64,000 nucleotides of DNA from Thermoguttaceae bacterium (GTDB lineage Bacteria > Planctomycetota > Planctomycetia > Pirellulales > Thermoguttaceae). A program made the position numbers and the translations under genes. Below the pieces are notes generated by a model. That model was not told the DNA's origin, ran no database searches, and saw nothing but the letters and a program-made list of their open reading frames with translations. Shown piece by piece: positions 17,045 through 26,373 of this stretch (its first letter is position 1; each line of letters opens with the position of its first letter). The stretch spans positions 186,001 through 250,000 of the forward strand of contig JANXBW010000002.1 of NCBI GenBank assembly GCA_025060325.1. The letters are read 5' to 3'.

Positions 17045-19423
17045 TTGCCTGATTTGCAGACCGGAGTTCGTGGGCAGGTGAGCTTGGATCGAGCCTGCGT
17101 GCCATTGGTGCCTCGGTGTTCGGTGCAAACCGATGTGCTGGTTCGTCGGGGGATCCTCGTCCGGGGGATCGTCCAGGGAGTGGGGTTCCGCCCATTTGTT
17201 TTTCAGCTCGCAAGTAAGCTAGGCCTCACCGGATTTGTGCGAAACGAGTCGGCCGCTGTCCGAATCGAAATTCAGGGAACCACTAGTCAGGTCGAGCAGT
17301 TCGAGAGAACTCTCCGCCACCATCATCCTCCCCAAGTACGGATCGAAGACTGGGAAGCCACCTGGCTGCCGCCGCTGCCGAAAGAATTTGGATTTCACAT
17401 CGCCTCCAGTGACTCCGGGGGCGGACGAGCACCGGTGATCCCCGCTGATCTTGCGACATGCCCTGCTTGTGTTGACGAGATCTTCGATCCGACCGAGCGG
17501 CGCTTCCGATACCCGTTTACCAACTGTACTAATTGCGGACCGCGGTGGTCAATCATCCGGGGATTGCCGTATGATCGACCGCTTACAAGCATGGCCCATT
17601 TTGCCATGTGTTCAGATTGTCAACGGGAGTACGGGGATCCTCGGGATCGTCGCTTCCACGCCCAACCAATTGCCTGCCCTGTCTGCGGCCCCCAGCTCAC
17701 CCTGTTGGATTCCGCGGGGAAACTAATCGCCAGGGAGGCGCATGCTCTTTCCGAGGCAGTTTTGGCCGTGCAGGCGGGCAAGATCCTCGCTCTCTTAGGT
17801 CTTGGCGGATTTCAACTGATTGTCGACGCCACGAATCCAGCGGCGGTAAGTGCACTCCGCGCGCGAAAGCGCCGGCCACACAAACCCTTTGCCATCATGT
17901 GTCCGTCCCTCGAGTCGGTGGGCAATTGGTGCCATCTGGGGACGGAGGAAGCCGCTTGGCTTTCCGCACCGCAGGCGCCAATCCTCCTTCTCCGCCGGCG
18001 GCAAACCATCCCGGTTGATATCCCCCCCATCGCCGAGGAAGTTGCCCCGGGCAATCCTTACTTAGGCGTCATGCTCCCCTACACGCCGCTACACCATCTT
18101 TTCATGCATCAAATCGGCCGGCCAATTGTGTGCACAAGTGGCAATCTTTCCGAAGAGCCGATGGCGACCGCCGTTGAGGAAGGATTGACCCGACTGGGTG
18201 CGGTGGCCGATCTTTTCCTCGTACATAATCGACCCATTGTCCGCCCCGTTGACGATTCGGTAGCGCGCGTCTTTCGGGGCAGGCTGCAACTTCTGCGTCG
18301 CGCTCGGGGATTTGCCCCTTTGCCGCACAAAATCAACACTGGAGGAAAGGTCATCCTAGCGACAGGTGCTCACCAGAAAAACACAATTGGTCTGCTACTA
18401 CGAAATAATGCCATTATCACTCCTCACATTGGCGATCTCGATAGTCCCCTCACCGTAGAAGTGTTTACGCGGGCAATTGAGGACCTTCTTCGCTTCTACG
18501 AGGTAAGCCCGGACGCAATCGCCTGTGATCTTCACCCGGACTATGCATCCCGGCGGTTAGCCGAGGAACTTGCCCGGAAGCACGATGTCCCGCTTGTTCC
18601 CGTTCAGCATCATCATGCCCATGTGGCAGCCTGTCTTGCGGAACACCATCTGGAAGGCCCAGCCTTGGGGATAGCCTGGGACGGGGCCGGGTACGGTCCG
18701 GATGGCACCGTTTGGGGAGGTGAGTTTCTTGCGTGCTCGCCGGTGCGATTTGAGCGAGTTGCCACTTTTCGGCCATTCCCCCTTCCGGGGGGAGATAAAG
18801 CAGCGCGACAGCCTCGCCGAAGCGCTTTAGGCCTCCTTTACGCTTGGCAGGGCGACTCGGGGGCGGCCCACTGCCGGGCCATGTTCAACCCCCAAGAGCT
18901 AGAAGTCCTTTGCGCGATGTTAGCTCGCGGGGTAAACTCCCCCCTTTGCTCAAGTGTGGGCCGGCTTTTTGATGGCGTTGCTGCCCTTCTGGGGCTGTCG
19001 CCGCAGGTGTCTTTCGAGGGTGAGGCCGCGATGGAACTAGAATTTCTAGCTCGGCCTGCCGAGGGCGCCCGTTACCGGTTTGAGCTTCAGGGGCAAGACC
19101 CGATCATTCTGGATTGGTCGCCTGTGGTGGAAGGAATACTTGCGGATCTTGAGGCCGGCTTCCCTCGCGAGGCGATCGCGTGGTGGTTCCATGAGGCCTT
19201 AGCCGATGCTGCTTGCCAAGTGGCCGGCCGGATAGGTCTCAAGACTGTGGTAATCACGGGGGGCTGTTTCCAAAACGCCGTATTGAGCCAGTTGATTGTC
19301 AACAAGCTGAACGGACAGGGATTTCGGGTATTTTGGCCAGAAGCGTTTCCCCCAAACGACGGTGGAATTGCCCTGGGTCAGTTGGTCGTGGCAGCAGCCG
19401 CCCTGGAGGCCCCGATGCGCTAA
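17045..19423 (+). CDS. hypF: Carbamoyltransferase HypF, NiFe-hydrogenase maturation
   Basis: HypF makes the thiocarbamate on HypE from carbamoyl phosphate and ATP, the first step to the CN ligands of NiFe-hydrogenase. The 792 residues run in the family order. An acylphosphatase domain covers about 34-120 (RGIVQGVGFRPFVF). Two zinc-finger pairs follow (Cys139/142 with 161/164, and Cys189/192 with 211/214). Then come a YrdC-like domain (about 225-410) and a Kae1-like carbamoyltransferase domain with VQHHHAHVAACLAEH. The TTG start at 17045 has GGAG at 17035; the 30 residues before the acylphosphatase domain are not conserved, so a later GTG is possible. First of hypF-C-D-E. Confidence 0.95.
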   Translation: MPDLQTGVRGQVSLDRACVPLVPRCSVQTDVLVRRGILVRGIVQGVGFRPFVFQLASKLGLTGFVRNESAAVRIEIQGTTSQVEQFERTLRHHHPPQVRIEDWEATWLPPLPKEFGFHIASSDSGGGRAPVIPADLATCPACVDEIFDPTERRFRYPFTNCTNCGPRWSIIRGLPYDRPLTSMAHFAMCSDCQREYGDPRDRRFHAQPIACPVCGPQLTLLDSAGKLIAREAHALSEAVLAVQAGKILALLGLGGFQLIVDATNPAAVSALRARKRRPHKPFAIMCPSLESVGNWCHLGTEEAAWLSAPQAPILLLRRRQTIPVDIPPIAEEVAPGNPYLGVMLPYTPLHHLFMHQIGRPIVCTSGNLSEEPMATAVEEGLTRLGAVADLFLVHNRPIVRPVDDSVARVFRGRLQLLRRARGFAPLPHKINTGGKVILATGAHQKNTIGLLLRNNAIITPHIGDLDSPLTVEVFTRAIEDLLRFYEVSPDAIACDLHPDYASRRLAEELARKHDVPLVPVQHHHAHVAACLAEHHLEGPALGIAWDGAGYGPDGTVWGGEFLACSPVRFERVATFRPFPLPGGDKAARQPRRSALGLLYAWQGDSGAAHCRAMFNPQELEVLCAMLARGVNSPLCSSVGRLFDGVAALLGLSPQVSFEGEAAMELEFLARPAEGARYRFELQGQDPIILDWSPVVEGILADLEAGFPREAIAWWFHEALADAACQVAGRIGLKTVVITGGCFQNAVLSQLIVNKLNGQGFRVFWPEAFPPNDGGIALGQLVVAAAALEAPMR

Positions 19424-19694
19424 GTCATCAGGTGTTAGTTGCCGCCAGTGAATAGCGCCCAGCTTTCGAAGGGTGGGCAATAGCACACCCTCCAGCGATC
19501 CTTGCCGTCGTACAGGAGACGAAATGGCAAACCATCGCCGGACGGAGGTAGGTCGACGAATCTTGGTTTTCGCAACAGGTGGACGGGCTGAGGCAGTCGC
19601 TATCGTTTACTAGGGAGCACAGGCAACACTGTTTCGTAGCTCGTCGTTTGCCGCTTGTACAGAGGAAGGCTATCAACGGGAAAGTAACTAGCCG

Positions 19695-20000
19695 ATGTGT
19701 TTGGGAATTCCCGCGAAGGTTACAGAGATTTACAGGAAAGATGGCCTTCTTATGGCTAGGGCGGAAGTGGGCGGTATTGCCAAGGAAATTTGTTTGGAGT
19801 ACACGCCTGAGGCCAAGGTGGGAGACTACGTGGTCGTCCACGTGGGTTTTGCAATCAGCATTTTGGACGAGACCGAGGCTCAGGAAATGCTCGCAACACT
19901 ACGAGAATTGGCGGAGCAATTGGACCCGGCAAGTTATTCGCGCCCTATTGAGCCGGAAGCTCCTGCTAACCTCTCGGCAACGGAAGACAAGTCGCGGTGA
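19695..20000 (+). CDS. hypC: Hydrogenase maturation chaperone HypC/HupF
   Basis: HypC carries the Fe(CN)2CO unit with HypD and delivers it to the hydrogenase large subunit. The 101-residue protein starts MCLGIPAKV, with the essential Cys2, and shows the OB-like core ending VGFAISILDETEAQE. The roughly 25 residues after that are an acidic, Pro-rich tail longer than in E. coli HypC. It lies 271 bp after hypF and 193 bp before hypD, looser than in most hyp operons. No second HypC paralogue is in the window. Confidence 0.95.
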   Translation: MCLGIPAKVTEIYRKDGLLMARAEVGGIAKEICLEYTPEAKVGDYVVVHVGFAISILDETEAQEMLATLRELAEQLDPASYSRPIEPEAPANLSATEDKSR

Positions 20001-20193
20001 CCGCCCAACGTACCTTTAACCCAATCCAGCGGAACTTGCCTGATACCGCTCCGTACATGCGTCCTTAGTGGCGAGAAGATGGATGTCAACAACTGGGACC
20101 AAAGCGACGTGTGGGAACCCTTAAGAGAGCCTTGCGGTTGAATTTGGCAAAGATCAATTAGCCGGTCCTTTATCCCCGCCTACAGAGAAGTCT

Positions 20194-21288
20194 ATGGCCG
20201 TCCGATACGTCGAGGAATTTCGCGATCCCGCCAAGGTGAAGGCCTTAGCCGGTCAAATCGCCGCCATGGTGACTCGGCCATGGACGATTATGGAAATCTG
20301 CGGCGGTCAAACACATGCCATCTTGCGCTTTGGGTTAGACCAACTACTGCCGAAAGAGATTTCCCTCATCCACGGCCCGGGCTGTCCGGTGTGTGTTACC
20401 CCTGTCGAGTTAATCGACCGAGCCATCGCGGTGGCGCGGCGCCCGGAGGTGATCTTGTGTTCTTTTGGCGACATGCTGCGTGTGCCGGGGTCAGCGGGCG
20501 ATCTTCTGGCCGCCAAGGCCGAAGGGGCGGATGTCCGCGTGGTGTATTCGCCCCTTGATGCCGTGGAGATTGCCCGCAAAAATCCCAGCCGCCAAGTGGT
20601 CTTTTTCGCGGTCGGATTTGAGACCACGGCACCTGCTAACGCCATGGCTGTGCTCCACGCTTTTCATCAACGACTTCGGAATTTCTCGGTACTGGTCGCC
20701 CATGTCTTGGTCCCGCCGGCTGTTGAGGCGATCCTCGCAAGCGGGGCTAAGATCGACGGCTTCCTGGCCGCAGGGCATGTGTGCACGGTAATGGGCATCG
20801 AAGAATACGAACCTATCGCCGAGCGTTTCCGGGTTCCAATCGTGGTCACCGGGTTTGAGCCACTGGATATCTTGCAGGGCCTCGCCATGTGTCTTCGCCA
20901 ATTGGAATCCGGTGAAGCCCGCGTGGAGATCCAGTACGACCGATCTGTGCGGCCGGAAGGTAACCAGGCGGCCAAGCAAGTGATCTTACGTGTTTTCGAA
21001 ATCACCGATCGCAAATGGCGCGGGATAGGGCTATTGCCCCGCAGCGGCCTAAAATTGCGTGAGGAATTCCGCGATTTCGATGCAGAAGTGCGATTTAACC
21101 TCGGGGCCCTTGAGCGCGAGGAAGAGCCGGGGTGCATCGCCGGGTTAGTGCTCCAAGGTAAAGCCCGGCCAACAGACTGTCCGTTCTTTGGCACAAAGTG
21201 TACTCCGGATCATCCACTTGGAGCACCTATGGTATCAAGCGAAGGGGCATGTGCGGCATACTTCCGCTACCGACGGACTGGGTTGTGA
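20194..21288 (+). CDS. hypD: Hydrogenase maturation iron-sulfur protein HypD
   Basis: HypD is the scaffold on which HypC-bound iron receives CN and CO. The 364-residue protein keeps the family motifs: ICGGQTHAI near residue 30, [10 protein letters not shown] near 66, the central [10 protein letters not shown], and the C-terminal 4Fe-4S cysteines in [24 protein letters not shown] and [12 protein letters not shown]. Its stop codon overlaps an in-frame ATG for hypE in the arrangement TGATG at 21286-21290, which suggests translational coupling. Confidence 0.96.
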
Positions 21289-22490
21289 TGGCGGGTCGGA
21301 TGGGCTGGACCTCAAGGGATTGTGAGCAGGGTGCGTTTGGGAAACTAAGTAGACCTTTGCCGATGAACGAACCTTTCCCTAACCTCGAACAAAAATCCTC
21401 GCCGTCGGGAGGTCCACCCACTTCGCAGCATCTGTGGACCGGTATCTGTCCCCTTCCGTTTCAAAACGCAACCAGTATCCAACTTGCCCACGGAGGTGGC
21501 GGCCGGCTGATGCGCGAGCTCATCCGCAACCTTTTTGTCCCTATCTTTTCCCGCCGAGAAGTCGCCGGTCTTTCTGACCTAGTGGGAAAACATGATAGTG
21601 CGGTGCTTCCCCTTTCCGGATTGCGGGTGGCTGTGACAACCGATAGCTATGTGGTTCGCCCGCTCTTTTTCCCAGGGGGTGATATCGGTCGGCTGGCGGT
21701 GTTTGGCACGATTAACGACCTGGCAATGGCCGGCGCCCAACCGGTGGCCCTTTCCGCCGCTTTTATCTTGGAAGAAGGCTTCCCCCTCAGTGAGCTTCTG
21801 CGGATTGTCCTTTCAATGGAGCAAGCGGCTGAGGAAGCCGGAGTCGTAATCGTCACGGGCGACACGAAGGTCGTGGATCGGGGAAAGGGAGATGGTGTTT
21901 TCATCACCACAACCGGGGTGGGTGTTGTCCCGGCGGGCGTGGACATTGGACCGCACAGAGTCAGGCCGGGCGATGCGATTATGGTCAGCGGTGATATTGG
22001 CCGACACGGCGTCGCAATCCTTTCGGTTCGGGAGGGCCTCGCCTTCCACACGGAGATCCAAAGCGACTGTGCCCCTCTGGAGCGAGCTGTGCGGGCGCTA
22101 ATATCGGCTGGTGTGGAGATCCATTGCCTGCGGGATTTGACCCGGGGCGGCTTGGCGGCCGCGCTAAACGAAATAGCTGCGGATGCGGGAGTGGGGATAG
22201 AGCTGGAAGAAAGTGCCATCCCGGTTTCCGAACCAGTACGCGCTGCCTGCGAGCTCTTGGGGCTCGATCCCCTGTACGTCGCCTGCGAAGGTCGATTGGT
22301 CTGCTTTGTACCGCCTCAGGCAGCAGACTGGGCCCGGCAAATCCTCAGCTCCTTCCCGGGCGGGGAATGTGCGGCTCAGATCGGGAAGTGCGTCAGGGAC
22401 CATCCGGGAACCGTTGTCGCGCGAGGACCATGGGGCACGGAGCGAGTGGTTGACCTCCTCTCCGGGGAGCAAATGCCCAGGATATGTTAG
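21288..22490 (+). CDS. hypE: Hydrogenase maturation protein HypE (carbamoyl dehydratase)
   Basis: HypE dehydrates the carbamoyl group received from HypF to a thiocyanate on its C-terminal Cys. The last residues PRIC, identical to the family tail, carry that Cys. The AIR-synthase-type core starts near IQLAHGGGGRLMREL and includes TDSYVVRPLFFPGGDIGRLA, the ATP site VTGDTKVVDRGKGDG and DLTRGGLAAALNEIA. Starting at ATG 21288, overlapping the hypD stop, gives 400 residues, about 60 longer at the N-terminus than E. coli HypE. ATG 21363 would give 375. The longer start is preferred only because of the overlap. Confidence 0.94.
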   Translation: MAGRMGWTSRDCEQGAFGKLSRPLPMNEPFPNLEQKSSPSGGPPTSQHLWTGICPLPFQNATSIQLAHGGGGRLMRELIRNLFVPIFSRREVAGLSDLVGKHDSAVLPLSGLRVAVTTDSYVVRPLFFPGGDIGRLAVFGTINDLAMAGAQPVALSAAFILEEGFPLSELLRIVLSMEQAAEEAGVVIVTGDTKVVDRGKGDGVFITTTGVGVVPAGVDIGPHRVRPGDAIMVSGDIGRHGVAILSVREGLAFHTEIQSDCAPLERAVRALISAGVEIHCLRDLTRGGLAAALNEIAADAGVGIELEESAIPVSEPVRAACELLGLDPLYVACEGRLVCFVPPQAADWARQILSSFPGGECAAQIGKCVRDHPGTVVARGPWGTERVVDLLSGEQMPRIC

Positions 22491-22608
22491 GAGGATGCCC
22501 GCATTTGCCCATGCTCGGGAAAATCGCTGGCCAACCGGGCAAGAGTAGCCCGCGGCGAGCTTGACCAAAGCTTGGCTGCAACTTCAGGGGCCAAGGCGCA
22601 AACGCTCA

Positions 22609-23634
22609 ATGATCAAAATAGTCAACTTCACAAAACACTACGGCCAAAGGGTAGCTGTCGATCGGCTCAACCTCCTTATTGAGCCAGGGGAGATCTTCGG
22701 GTTCGTCGGGCCTAATGGCGCCGGTAAGACAACAACCATTCGCTTCTTGGCCACTCTGATCCGGCCAACTGAAGGCGAGGGATGGATTTGCGGTTATAGC
22801 GTGGTACGCGAGCCGCTTGCCGCCCGCCGTGTACTTGGCTATATGCCAGACAGCTTCGGCGCCTACTTGGGTATGCGGGTGAAGGATTTCTTAGAGTTCT
22901 TCGCGGAGATCCACGGAGTACCCCGTCCTCTGCGGAAGCAGGCGATTTCGCGCGTGGGGGATCGGCTGGAATTAGGCCCGGTATGGAACGAATACGTCAC
23001 CCGGCTATCCCGAGGAATGAAACAGCGGCTGTCATTAGCCCAGGCCCTTATCCACGATCCACCCGTGCTAATCCTCGACGAGCCTGCAAGTGGGCTGGAC
23101 CCGAAAGCGCGGATTGAGCTCAAGCGGCTACTACTTGAACTGAGAGCTGCCGGCAAAACCATCTTGATTTCGAGCCACATCCTTGCCGAGCTTGCCGACT
23201 GGGCGACTACGGTCGGGATTATCCACAAAGGTCGATTGCTCCTTCGCGGACCGCTCCGCGTGGTCGCTCAGCACTTACGACCGGTTCGGCGAATTCACAT
23301 TCGCTTTTCTTCTGATCCGGAAAAGGTGATTCGCATAGTGGAGTCGATCCCGGGTGTCCGCTGGGTGCTTCCTCAAGATGGGGCGGTTACGGCGGAGTTG
23401 GAAGCAGGCGACAGTCAGCTGGCCGACCTCTTGCGGAAGCTTGTGAAAGAAGATGTACAGGTGTTTAACTTTGCCGAGGAGGAACCTTCGCTGGAGGAGA
23501 TCTTCCTCTTGGCAACCGGAGCAGGCGGACCCGGGTCGGCCGAGCTACCGGGGTTGGGATCAAGCACTTATCGCCAGGCTGACGGCGGCTTAACTGGCGG
23601 GGGCGAGTTTACCAGCACATTGGCAACAAGCTAA
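22609..23634 (+). CDS. ABC transporter ATP-binding protein without adjacent permease
   Basis: This is a cytoplasmic ATPase of the ABC-2 exporter type, 341 residues from ATG 22609. Walker A is GPNGAGKTTT, the signature LSRGMKQRLSLAQAL and Walker B LILDEPASGLD, followed by the switch His region ISSHILAELAD. The roughly 110-residue C-terminal part after the ATPase domain matches the usual regulatory tail of this family (CcmA/NatA-like). No membrane partner lies on either side. The upstream neighbour is hypE at 118 bp, and a 900-bp non-coding region follows. Role unknown: drug, lipid or polysaccharide export, or gliding-type systems, are all possible. Confidence 0.9.
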   Translation: MIKIVNFTKHYGQRVAVDRLNLLIEPGEIFGFVGPNGAGKTTTIRFLATLIRPTEGEGWICGYSVVREPLAARRVLGYMPDSFGAYLGMRVKDFLEFFAEIHGVPRPLRKQAISRVGDRLELGPVWNEYVTRLSRGMKQRLSLAQALIHDPPVLILDEPASGLDPKARIELKRLLLELRAAGKTILISSHILAELADWATTVGIIHKGRLLLRGPLRVVAQHLRPVRRIHIRFSSDPEKVIRIVESIPGVRWVLPQDGAVTAELEAGDSQLADLLRKLVKEDVQVFNFAEEEPSLEEIFLLATGAGGPGSAELPGLGSSTYRQADGGLTGGGEFTSTLATS

Positions 23635-23943
23635 GGCTTTCGCCGCGACAAAAAAGGTGCTCTCAGCTGGGCCGAACACCGGGGGCGATCATACCTCCCG
23701 AACAAAGTTGCCTCGAGGGGGCGGCCGGTGAAAAGAGCAAGCAACTCCGGAAAGGTGCCGGGCGGGCCGACACTTCAAGAAGCTCGCTTTTAGGTTAAAA
23801 GCTGAACCGTAATCCGGCAAAAACGACGTTTCGACAATTTCCCGGCCGCGCTCTTAATCATTCGCTTATCGACCACCTACGGGGGACGCGCCTCAAAGCC
23901 TCTGCCGCAAAATGCGCCATTAGCGGGGGACGGATATTGCGAG

Positions 23944-23989
23944 ATCGTTTGCCGCTTGAACCGCCGGCCATACTTGCGGCGGTAACGAT
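23944..23989. repeat. Two-part inverted repeat (6 bp + 7 bp)
   Basis: ATCGTT at 23944 pairs with AACGAT at 23984, and ACCGCCG at 23960 pairs with CGGCGGT at 23977. The inner stem closes a 10-base loop, and ten unpaired bases separate the two stems on the left arm. The collinear stems suggest an RNA helix with a one-sided bulge. Confidence 0.6.
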
Positions 23990-24078
23990 TCCATTGTCTT
24001 TCTATACTTCCAGCGGTCTTCTTCCCTAAGTTCCAAATTGGCAAAGCCTTACGCACAAGACCCTTCTTGTCGGTGCTA

Positions 24079-24099
24079 CCAGTTGGCATGGCCAACTGG
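24079..24099. repeat. Perfect 9-bp inverted repeat, 3-base loop
   Basis: CCAGTTGGC at 24079 is the exact complement of GCCAACTGG at 24091, with ATG between. No T run follows on either strand, so it is not a simple terminator. Confidence 0.75.
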
Positions 24100-24119
24100 A
24101 CACCTGGGAAATTGAACTT

Positions 24120-24156
24120 GAGTCGTAACCTTCAGCAAAGAAACAGGTTACGACTC
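24120..24156. repeat. Perfect 12-bp inverted repeat, 13-base loop
   Basis: GAGTCGTAACCT at 24120-24131 is the exact complement of AGGTTACGACTC at 24145-24156. With equal base frequencies fewer than 0.1 such repeats (loop 20 or less) are expected in 64 kb. The sequence after it, TACGTCTTTTCGAC, is only mildly T-rich. It is a hairpin or a protein-binding dyad. Confidence 0.8.
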
Positions 24157-24381
24157 TACGTCTTTTCGACTATCTCTTGGCGTCTTCGGACCTAAACCGG
24201 CCGAAACCTGTCCCCAAGTGCGGAGCCTACCAGCTAATGGATTGACCACTTTTTTTGGTGACATTGTTCCCCCCATGCCAGGGGCACAAATGAGCGTACC
24301 CCCAATACAAGGGGGAAATCTGTCCTGGACACCTCGAGCTTGGTCAACAGCCGCGCCGTTACCGTGCGACCGACCCGTTCG

Positions 24382-24393
24382 GATTGCGCAATC
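24382..24393. promoter_or_regulatory. 12-bp palindrome, possible operator
   Basis: GATTGCGCAATC is a perfect palindrome about 145 bp upstream of the RHH-like gene. Palindromes of 12 bp occur by chance about every 4 kb, so only its position makes it interesting: RHH proteins commonly bind such sites and regulate themselves. Confidence 0.3.
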
Positions 24394-24407
24394 GTCAAAG
24401 TCCTCTT

Positions 24408-24430
24408 GCTTGCGCTAGCAGAATGCAAGC
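24408..24430. repeat. 6-bp inverted repeat in the leader region
   Basis: GCTTGC at 24408 pairs with GCAAGC at 24425 across an 11-base loop. A flanking CTTGC/GCAAG pair (24405, 24432) can extend it. It is the last dyad before the ribosome site of the RHH-like gene. Confidence 0.4.
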
Positions 24431-24538
24431 GGCAAGACACAGTTACAGCCAGTTCTCGCGGACAGGAGCACTCTCTGCCGGCCGAGGGTCCTCGCAACTA
24501 ACTAGGAGACAGTTCCAGCCAAAGGAGGGACAAAAACC

Positions 24539-25138
24539 ATGACGCTCGAACAAGAAAGGCGAGCAATCGGGGCATACGCCGCTCCCGATTCCTCAGAATC
24601 TCTTGACGCAGACCTTGGGCCAGCTGGGGAAACTAGCTCAGAATCGGTCATGGTCGAAGAGCCGGCGGCTGTCGACCCGGAAGCTACCCGCCAAATCTTG
24701 GCGGCAGCAAGGAAGCTGTACGAGGAGCGGTGTAGCTGGGCCAAGTTTTATCAGCAGATTTTGGGCACTAACGGCCTCATTCACCGATTATTTCCCACTG
24801 CGGAAAGCCAGACGGCCTTCCGCCGCAGCAAGGCGTACGGGGAAATTCAGCGGATGCTGGCGGCCCTTAGCGGTCGAAGGCTCCGTCGCCGCCGCACTGA
24901 GCAACCGATCAAAATCATCACGGTGCGCGTGCCCGAAAGCGTTCATGCCGAGCTTGCTCGGGAAGCCGCTTTGAAGGGCCTTAGCGTCAATCAGCTGTGT
25001 GTCATCAAACTGGTGCAACTAATCGAGGCGGAGGCTTTGGCCGCGGGAAATCCACCCCCACTCACCGAAGCCAGCTCCTCGGCTGAACCACCAACCTCTA
25101 CCTCGCATCCCAATGAGTCCCAAGCCGGGGCAAGCTAG
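24539..25138 (+). CDS. Uncharacterised protein with C-terminal ribbon-helix-helix-like segment
   Basis: ATG 24539 has an excellent ribosome site (AAAGGAGGG). The 199-residue product has an acidic, disordered-looking N-terminus (1-45) and a helical middle (about 48-110, KLYEERCSWAKFYQQILG). A very basic stretch follows (RRLRRRR, 113-119). Then comes a segment at 124-165, IITVRVPESVHAELA then LSVNQL, that fits the strand-helix-helix pattern of CopG/HicB-type DNA-binding domains. The tail is Ser/Pro-rich. I do not recognise the family. It stands alone, preceded by the dyad-rich region. DNA binding and self-regulation are inferences. No toxin-like neighbour is seen, so a toxin-antitoxin role is not supported. 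Confidence 0.75.
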   Translation: MTLEQERRAIGAYAAPDSSESLDADLGPAGETSSESVMVEEPAAVDPEATRQILAAARKLYEERCSWAKFYQQILGTNGLIHRLFPTAESQTAFRRSKAYGEIQRMLAALSGRRLRRRRTEQPIKIITVRVPESVHAELAREAALKGLSVNQLCVIKLVQLIEAEALAAGNPPPLTEASSSAEPPTSTSHPNESQAGAS

Positions 25139-25296: not shown

Positions 25297-26373
25297 CTAG
25301 AAACAGATGTCAACTGACCTTCTTACCCCAAGTGACTGAGCTACCTGGACTACGCGTTGACGAAGTTGCGTCAAATACCGGGCCCTGGTAGTTTCATCGA
25401 AAAGGAGCCTACGATACCAGCCCACAAGCCCTGGAAAGTGAGCCTCCAGAAGGCGGCAAACGCTTTCCCAGACCTTGGGGCGACGATTAAAGGCGTCGAC
25501 GCATATTTCCTCCGCCCCGGCCTCTAAACCCACTTCCATCATGCGGCGAAGCTCCTGCCTATTGTCGGATAGCGCCGGCAAAATCGGAGCGATCATCAAG
25601 GTTGTCTTTAATCCACAAGCACGAGCCGCTCGGAGCACCTCTAACCGTTTCGCCGGCGGAGCGGCCCTTGGTTCCCATAGATGGGCAAGCTCCTCGTCGA
25701 GCGTGCTCAGAGAAATACCTACCGTCACAGGCCGATCCGCGAAGGAATCGAGATCCTGCAGAATCAGCTGACTTTTTGTGAGGATGCTTATTGAAAACCC
25801 GTAGGCGAGAAGAAGTTCCGCAGATTTTCGAGAAAGCCGGTAGACTGCCTCGACCGGCTGCCAACCGTCGCAAGCACTACTCATAAACACCCGGCCAGGC
25901 CGCAGCCGCCGCAGTTGCCGGCGCAGGGCCTCAAGCACCCCCAGCTTGACGTCGACAAATTGCCCCCACGGTTCGGTGCGCGGATAAAATCTTTGGATGA
26001 ATCGAGCGTAGCAATAGACACACCCGTGGGCACAGCCGCCGTAACAATTGAGGGTGTAGTCACAAATCGCACTTACGTTTAATGCCGTGCGACATGGCCG
26101 GAACCGGATGACGATTCCCTCAGGCCTGCAAGGCTCGCTTGAGCCTCCTTCTTTGGTGGAAGCGTCATTTGTAAATAAAGCTCCCGGAGGGCAGTCCCGT
26201 GGCAAATCCTGATACCGCTCGCCCGCTTCCCCTTGCCAAAGAAGAGGTAACTTGAGTTCCGGCGGATCGGCCAACGCTTCGCGCCAAGGCCCATTTTCGC
26301 CACAGGCTTTGCTTGTCGGAGGAACTTGCTTTTCGCGGCTGTCAGTCATATCTGGCCAAACTCGGGGCCTCAA
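25297..26373 (-). CDS. Radical SAM protein of the spore photoproduct lyase / Rv2578c type
   Basis: This is an iron-sulfur radical SAM enzyme of 358 residues. The cluster motif is Cys114-x3-Cys118-x2-Cys121 within GGCAHGCVYCYAR, as in SPL-like proteins (CxxxCxxC). Other family features are TLNCYGG before it, SSACDGWQPVE, ILTKSQLILQDLD and VGISLSTLDEEL. The N-terminal 80 residues are Pro- and charge-rich and not conserved. An in-frame ATG at 26349 is an alternative start. Proteins of this group are widespread and mostly uncharacterised, so repair of thymine photoproducts should not be assumed. It has no operon partner. Confidence 0.85.
   Translation of the reverse strand: MRPRVWPDMTDSREKQVPPTSKACGENGPWREALADPPELKLPLLWQGEAGERYQDLPRDCPPGALFTNDASTKEGGSSEPCRPEGIVIRFRPCRTALNVSAICDYTLNCYGGCAHGCVYCYARFIQRFYPRTEPWGQFVDVKLGVLEALRRQLRRLRPGRVFMSSACDGWQPVEAVYRLSRKSAELLLAYGFSISILTKSQLILQDLDSFADRPVTVGISLSTLDEELAHLWEPRAAPPAKRLEVLRAARACGLKTTLMIAPILPALSDNRQELRRMMEVGLEAGAEEICVDAFNRRPKVWESVCRLLEAHFPGLVGWYRRLLFDETTRARYLTQLRQRVVQVAQSLGVRRSVDICF

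Follow-up and report, generated by a model that had tools for sequence, protein, structure and literature searches.

Ribbon-helix-helix (RHH) proteins often regulate their own genes through operators. Autoregulated RHH repressors and antitoxins, among them AmrZ, CopG, KacA, AtaR, CopASO and MobC of RA3, resemble the locus described here in their RHH DNA-binding domain and in the dyads upstream of their own gene. Unlike these systems, the present protein carries an extra N-terminal part predicted to be helical, its gene lacks an adjacent HicA gene in the genomes and places listed and is widespread across an order of bacteria, the Pirellulales, and its upstream element has three 17-bp dyads of similar build flanked by two other blocks. 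HicB antitoxins (PF05534), which have an N-terminal RNase H-like domain, share the RHH segment with the present protein. The palindrome TGC-N11-GCA is named in an excerpt of PMC10746234 as an NtrC motif of activated and repressed promoters. The relatives' loci share these half-sites and their spacing, and the window has one such palindrome; in contrast to NtrC-type sites, however, the element belongs to a single gene and keeps its three dyads in a fixed frame. Among titles and abstract openings in the literature on ribbon-helix-helix, HicB and transcription factor binding in Planctomycetes or Pirellula, none concerned the gene or the element. Together they are best called a further, probably autoregulated RHH regulator, whose control region is unusual in its wide distribution and its rigidity.

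The window, the whole 64-kb stretch of DNA that was analysed, belongs to a Thermoguttaceae genome (G000) and was compared with two genomes of the same genus (G001 and G002). A gap of ~900 bp separates a gene for an ABC-type ATPase (22561-23634) from a 199-aa gene (Table 1). The first-pass annotation, made from the letters alone, had described here a dyad-rich segment (23944-24430) leading into an unrecognised gene for a 199-residue protein, with an RHH-like segment, behind a very strong ribosome site. The reading frame and its Shine-Dalgarno sequence are present as described, and comparable Shine-Dalgarno sequences precede many homologues. The gene can be recognised, however: residues 125-153 matched Pfam HicB (29.3 bits, cut-off 21; E = 8.1e-7), as did 18 of 21 family members at E ≤ 0.01. 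The RHH assignment was borne out by this match and by superposition of residues 123-171 on the solved RHH domains of AtaR, KacA, PutA, CopG, AmrZ and Arc (rmsd 1.1-2.1; Z 4.3-5.1, modest if taken alone). AmrZ was the sole match at E ≤ 0.1 in a profile search of solved structures (E = 0.0028), and Foldseek with the predicted structure returned no match at E ≤ 0.001. The N-terminal RNase H-like domain of HicB was not seen in the AlphaFold monomer, in which residues 47-121 are predicted as helices only (pLDDT mostly 89-98); the RHH helices were placed at 133-168, and the RHH strand was not assigned. The best match of the N-terminal fold, the N-terminal part of the PheRS alpha subunit (Z 8.7), was rejected at an rmsd of 4.9 and may reflect only a common helical arrangement. 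HicA (PF07927) had no match in G000, G001 or G002, which rules against a toxin-antitoxin pair. It was found somewhere in 35 of 60 relatives, and among the places listed none adjoins a strong match to the RHH gene.

The dyad excess in the segment is real. Perfect inverted repeats with arms of at least 6 and loops of 3-40 numbered 9, against a shuffle mean of 3.7, and none of 200 shuffles reached 9. With arms of at least 7 there were 4 (shuffle mean 0.87; 2 of 200 reached 4), and with arms of at least 9 there were 2 (0.085; 1 of 200 reached 2). Since 7 of the 262 stretches of 487 bp tiled over the 64 kb equalled the segment in arms of at least 7, it stands out for long arms only; two arms of at least 9 occurred solely in the 2 stretches that overlap it. 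Seven inverted repeats with exact 12-bp, 9-bp and 7+6-bp arms had been listed for the segment at first. The 12-bp and 9-bp arms proved exact, whereas the count of exactly seven and the "7+6" pair were not reproduced. No sigma-70-like promoter was detected by the tool's consensus in 23635-24560.

Table 1 Features of the RHH locus in the window (positions refer to the 64-kb stretch).
Feature	Position	Strand	Sequence	Remarks
HicB-type ribbon-helix-helix gene, 199 aa	24539..25138	+		predicted helical part 47-121, RHH 123-171; based on ORF, Pfam, homologues, AlphaFold and structure matches
Strong Shine-Dalgarno	24521..24529	+	AAAGGAGGG	from sequence
Block A	24097..24117	+	TGGACACCTGGGAAATTGAAC	relatives' consensus close to TGGACACTTTGGAAATGnGAc; best A-matrix score in the window on both strands, 15.3
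Exact 12-bp dyad	arms 24120-24131/24145-24156	.	GAGTCGTAACCT...AGGTTACGACTC	immediately follows block A; not found in G001 and G002
Exact 9-bp dyad	arms 24079-24087/24091-24099	.		abuts block A; absent in G001 and G002
Two adjacent CCCC..GGGG dyads	24269-24317: 24271-24274/24281-24284 and 24299-24303/24311-24315	.		comparable short C-run/G-run pairs in G001 and G002
Block C	24404..24436	.	TCTTGCTTGCGCTAGCAGAATGCAAGCGGCAAG	conserved on the left side in all three genomes of the genus; contains TGC-N11-GCA at 24411-24427

A conserved element was found upstream of the homologous genes in relatives. The k-mer TGCAAGCA occurred within 350 bp upstream of 14 of 30 homologues, the largest count in 40 shuffles being 7, and alignment of the upstream regions resolved a block A (TGGACACTTTGGAAATGnGA), three dyads and a block B (GACGTAAGTGCTAGCAnTGCAATnACAT). 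Exact TGC-N(10-12)-GCA dyads numbered 71 in 31 loci, compared with a mean of 9.9 and a maximum of 18 in 200 shuffles. The motifs were first spotted by eye after the k-mer counts, and loci outside the training set served as the independent check. A sequence-only model built from 23 training sequences, R1, was run on the best 80 of 306 loci. In 70 of these it detected the element (E ≤ 1e-4) on the same strand as the gene and upstream of it; among the ten loci without a match, two have insufficient upstream sequence. Sixty-five of the 70 positive loci were non-training loci, and in them the core of the first dyad was exact in 60 of 63 cases, mostly at offset 33-34. A -35-like TTGAC box followed the start of block B at a distance of exactly 41 or 42 nt in 30 of 58 testable loci, and 26 of the 58 had no TTGAC at 28-55 nt after that start. 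The array thus lies upstream of a promoter-like box where the box is visible. Across 60 genomes, 34 R1 matches were obtained at E ≤ 1.4e-4, one per genome and all beside the RHH gene, many of them in training genomes; under stricter filters, which lose some weak matches, every match at E ≤ 0.0121 adjoined the RHH gene. The R1-matched part lay on the strand opposite the gene in two genomes, G007 (E = 2.5e-10) and G020 (E = 5.1e-8), and weak reverse-strand matches elsewhere (best E = 1e-4) would be expected from the palindromes themselves. A first written pattern for block A was too tight and matched in 0 of 60 genomes, and an ungapped A matrix reached a score of 10 in 26 of 78 loci, L119 and L122 being left out for too little upstream DNA. 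By eye, block B appeared inverted directly behind block A in L054 and L066, as though a segment of the control DNA had been flipped. Hairpins with an ANGGA loop, which we take to be a CsrA-like shape, were observed in the 5'UTR downstream of the TTGAC box in 4 of 70 loci (for example L126 and L139), compared with 0.64 in mononucleotide shuffles (maximum 3).

We read the segment as promoter and operator DNA of a HicB-type RHH regulator that is widespread in the Pirellulales and likely autoregulatory, and place the probability of this reading at roughly 0.55. At the level of sequence comparison, the conservation of the element, its geometry, its DNA-like substitution pattern and its occurrence as a single strong copy per genome next to the gene are established. 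The RHH protein itself would most likely occupy the dyads cooperatively and thereby set its own expression, and other proteins may also share the array. Which protein binds the array, whether it represses or activates, and whether the rebuilt version in the window's genus works alike are points on which we infer. As a unique array stands beside the gene in each genome, a dedicated local operator fits better than a regulon. An operator-like element conserved enough to be detected from sequence alone could be examined, through footprinting or ChIP-seq, in a relative that can be cultured.

A possible, though tentative, alternative is that the RHH gene is under the control of another transcription factor, for example of the NtrC or Fis type, that recognises the TGC-N11-GCA dyads; the RHH product would then act elsewhere. 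The naming of this palindrome as an NtrC motif in the excerpt cited above is in keeping with it. So is the finding that the RHH strand core ITVR is unchanged in the window's genus while the palindromes are lost there, a combination not expected of an RHH protein that depends on these palindromes. Several observations argue the other way. A simple pattern found a sigma-54-like site in only 1 of the 70 loci, none being seen in the other 69, unlike at NtrC-type sites, and in the search of 60 genomes under the stricter filters the R1 matches at E ≤ 0.0121 were confined to the neighbourhood of the RHH gene. Furthermore, TGCCYAAnnnTTRGGCA with at most one mismatch exceeded its reversed-pattern control in 12 of the 60 genomes, in 11 of them by no more than 3, and clearly only in G040. 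In that genome 35 matches stood against 5 in the control, and most of those listed read TGCTCAATTCTTAGGCA or its complement; they are either a genuine regulon of that one genome or a repeat dispersed through it.

The first-pass annotation had offered a structured leader RNA, an independent RNA or a multi-site DNA element bound by the RHH-like protein. We consider a structured leader or independent small RNA unlikely. Hairpin-capable dyads do recur in relatives, and the window segment folds better than shuffles on the plus strand (z = -2.70), but the minus strand folds better still (z = -3.65). Mismatches and covariation were evaluated in 65 loci, the five training loci having been removed from the 70; dyads with at least two core mismatches were left uncounted, so that 63, 55 and 61 of the 65 were kept for the three dyads. 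G.U mismatches, compatible with pairing in a plus-strand RNA, and A.C mismatches, incompatible with it, stood at 8:8 at the three outer (core) pairs and at 99:114 at the inner four. Dyad position 4 was the sole inner pair whose covariation exceeded that of shuffles, in the first (p = 0.019) and third (p < 0.001) dyads; the correlated halves there could reflect a hairpin or a symmetric dimer. G.U mismatches as frequent as A.C, together with a single covarying pair position, point to protein-binding DNA and not to RNA. RNAalifold on the three same-genus regions gave an unfavourable covariation term of +4.77, a value from three sequences only. Rfam returned no match in the window at the gathering score, and in the loci of 16 relatives, searched at E ≤ 0.5, RNase P alone reached it, two further matches falling below theirs. 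The position of the array upstream of the fixed TTGAC box in the 30 loci, and the inversion of part of the element in two genomes, also speak against RNA. On balance, the evidence favours an element that behaves as double-stranded DNA in the relatives. Of the three initial readings, the multi-site DNA element fits best, judged mainly on the relatives and with binding by the RHH protein as the probable mechanism, and both RNA readings are disfavoured.

In the window's genus, the putative operator looks different. R1 had no match in the window or in G000, G001 and G002, so the window clearly keeps only block A, which aligns with A-like sequence in G001 (weak, score 3.8) and G002 (10.8). The relatives' three TGC-N11-GCA palindromes behind block A are absent from the window, and the dyads present instead are specific to the genome or the genus. 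Farther downstream lies block C, whose own TGC-N11-GCA is kept in G001 and has lost its right half in G002. The control region thus appears largely rebuilt in this genus, with A retained, the palindromes gone and other dyads in their place. Under the autoregulatory reading, this rebuilt version, which has the conserved block C at 307 bp from A, would work in the same way.

That the window's dyads are merely drifted intergenic sequence, left by decay of the array in the genus with long arms arising by chance, seems improbable to us. The interior between the blocks is only 27-36% identical among the three same-genus regions in register, R1 matches nothing in the window, and the 12-bp and 9-bp dyads are not common to the three genomes, all of which would fit drift. 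The distance from A to C is nevertheless 307 bp in G000, 307 bp in G001 and 308 bp in G002, the 32-base core of block C differs at 3 positions between G000 and G001, and the excess of arms of at least 9 (2 against 0.085 in shuffles) is likewise at odds with chance. The control region illustrates how spacing can outlast sequence. The first-pass annotation had made its proposal depend on conservation of the stems and the gene in close relatives; this failed for the 12-bp and 9-bp stems in G001 and G002 and left the gene unaffected. Three further candidates were rejected. Block C is not an order-wide motif: of 60 genomes, just G000 and G001 contain its 32-base core with no more than 3 mismatches. 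Nor is it a canonical block B, as the four best B matches of the region, down to a score of -3.5, do not include it. The 12-bp dyad gives a weak block-B-like match on the plus strand (score 5.8, the best in 23635-24538 and the fifth in the window), and as an inverted B box it did not reach significance with any of the 11 sequences compared, the two best being L067 (41/300 shuffles) and L054 (24/300).

The distribution of the gene was followed in relatives and in a class-wide sample. A single-sequence search found it in 46 of 60 relatives, with one match in 40 of the 46. In a profile search of the class-wide sample, 85 of 87 genomes of the Pirellulales were positive, and genomes of other orders matched more weakly in 23 of 210 cases; the totals of 87 and 210 assume a list ordered by kinship, in which 169 genomes without a match are not displayed. 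By family, the positives were 7 of the 8 order genomes that belong to the window's family and 78 of the 79 that do not. The full search of that family found the gene in 43 of 119 genomes, and in 22 of the 43 better ones. To call it universal in the order would be too strong, as the class-wide sample holds only 8 order genomes from the window's own family: elsewhere in the order almost every genome carries the gene, and more than half of this family's genomes lack it. Outside it, one regulator is present in nearly every sampled Pirellulales genome. That the mostly single-copy RHH protein and the unique array of evenly placed dyads, one per chromosome, make up a chromosomal landmark that contains the gene's promoter, for example a site of partition or of nucleoid organisation, is very improbable, and was rated lower because the gene is missing from much of the window's own family.

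Gene neighbourhoods were compared using frames of at least 40 aa around the 80 loci and the window. A co-directional upstream gene was common to 31 of the 80 loci, two of them on the other strand; in the two that were read (L114 1797-2732 and L156, Blastopirellula marina, 1482-2381) it encodes a PF01261 xylose-isomerase-like TIM-barrel protein, and no such gene was seen beside the RHH gene in the window. Downstream frames common to 29 of the 80 loci overlap RNase P RNA matches where both were scanned. Of the 36 loci scanned, 16 had RNase P RNA (RF00010) no farther than ~1.8 kb downstream of the RHH gene, namely L068, L014, L021, L022, L061, L018, L025, L030, L127, L106, L121, L108, L129, L115, L109 and L105, and it was convergent in 15 of the 16, L127 having it on the same strand; in this count L126 and L012 are one contig counted twice. 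Rfam found no RNase P RNA in the window. The neighbours of the window were common only to L101 (uncultured Thermoguttaceae bacterium) and L102 (uncultured Thermogutta sp.) among the 80 loci, and these two are the loci closest to the window in the relatives' contigs. Upstream of the ABC ATPase gene, the window carries a [NiFe]-hydrogenase maturation cluster (17045-22490) with HypF, HypC, HypD and a HypE-like AIR-synthase-related protein according to Pfam. Downstream of the RHH gene, a convergent radical SAM gene (25297-26373, minus strand) is related to the Rv2578c/PA0069 types, with NCBIfam scores below the cut-offs, and its homologue is also present in the G001 and G002 stretches.
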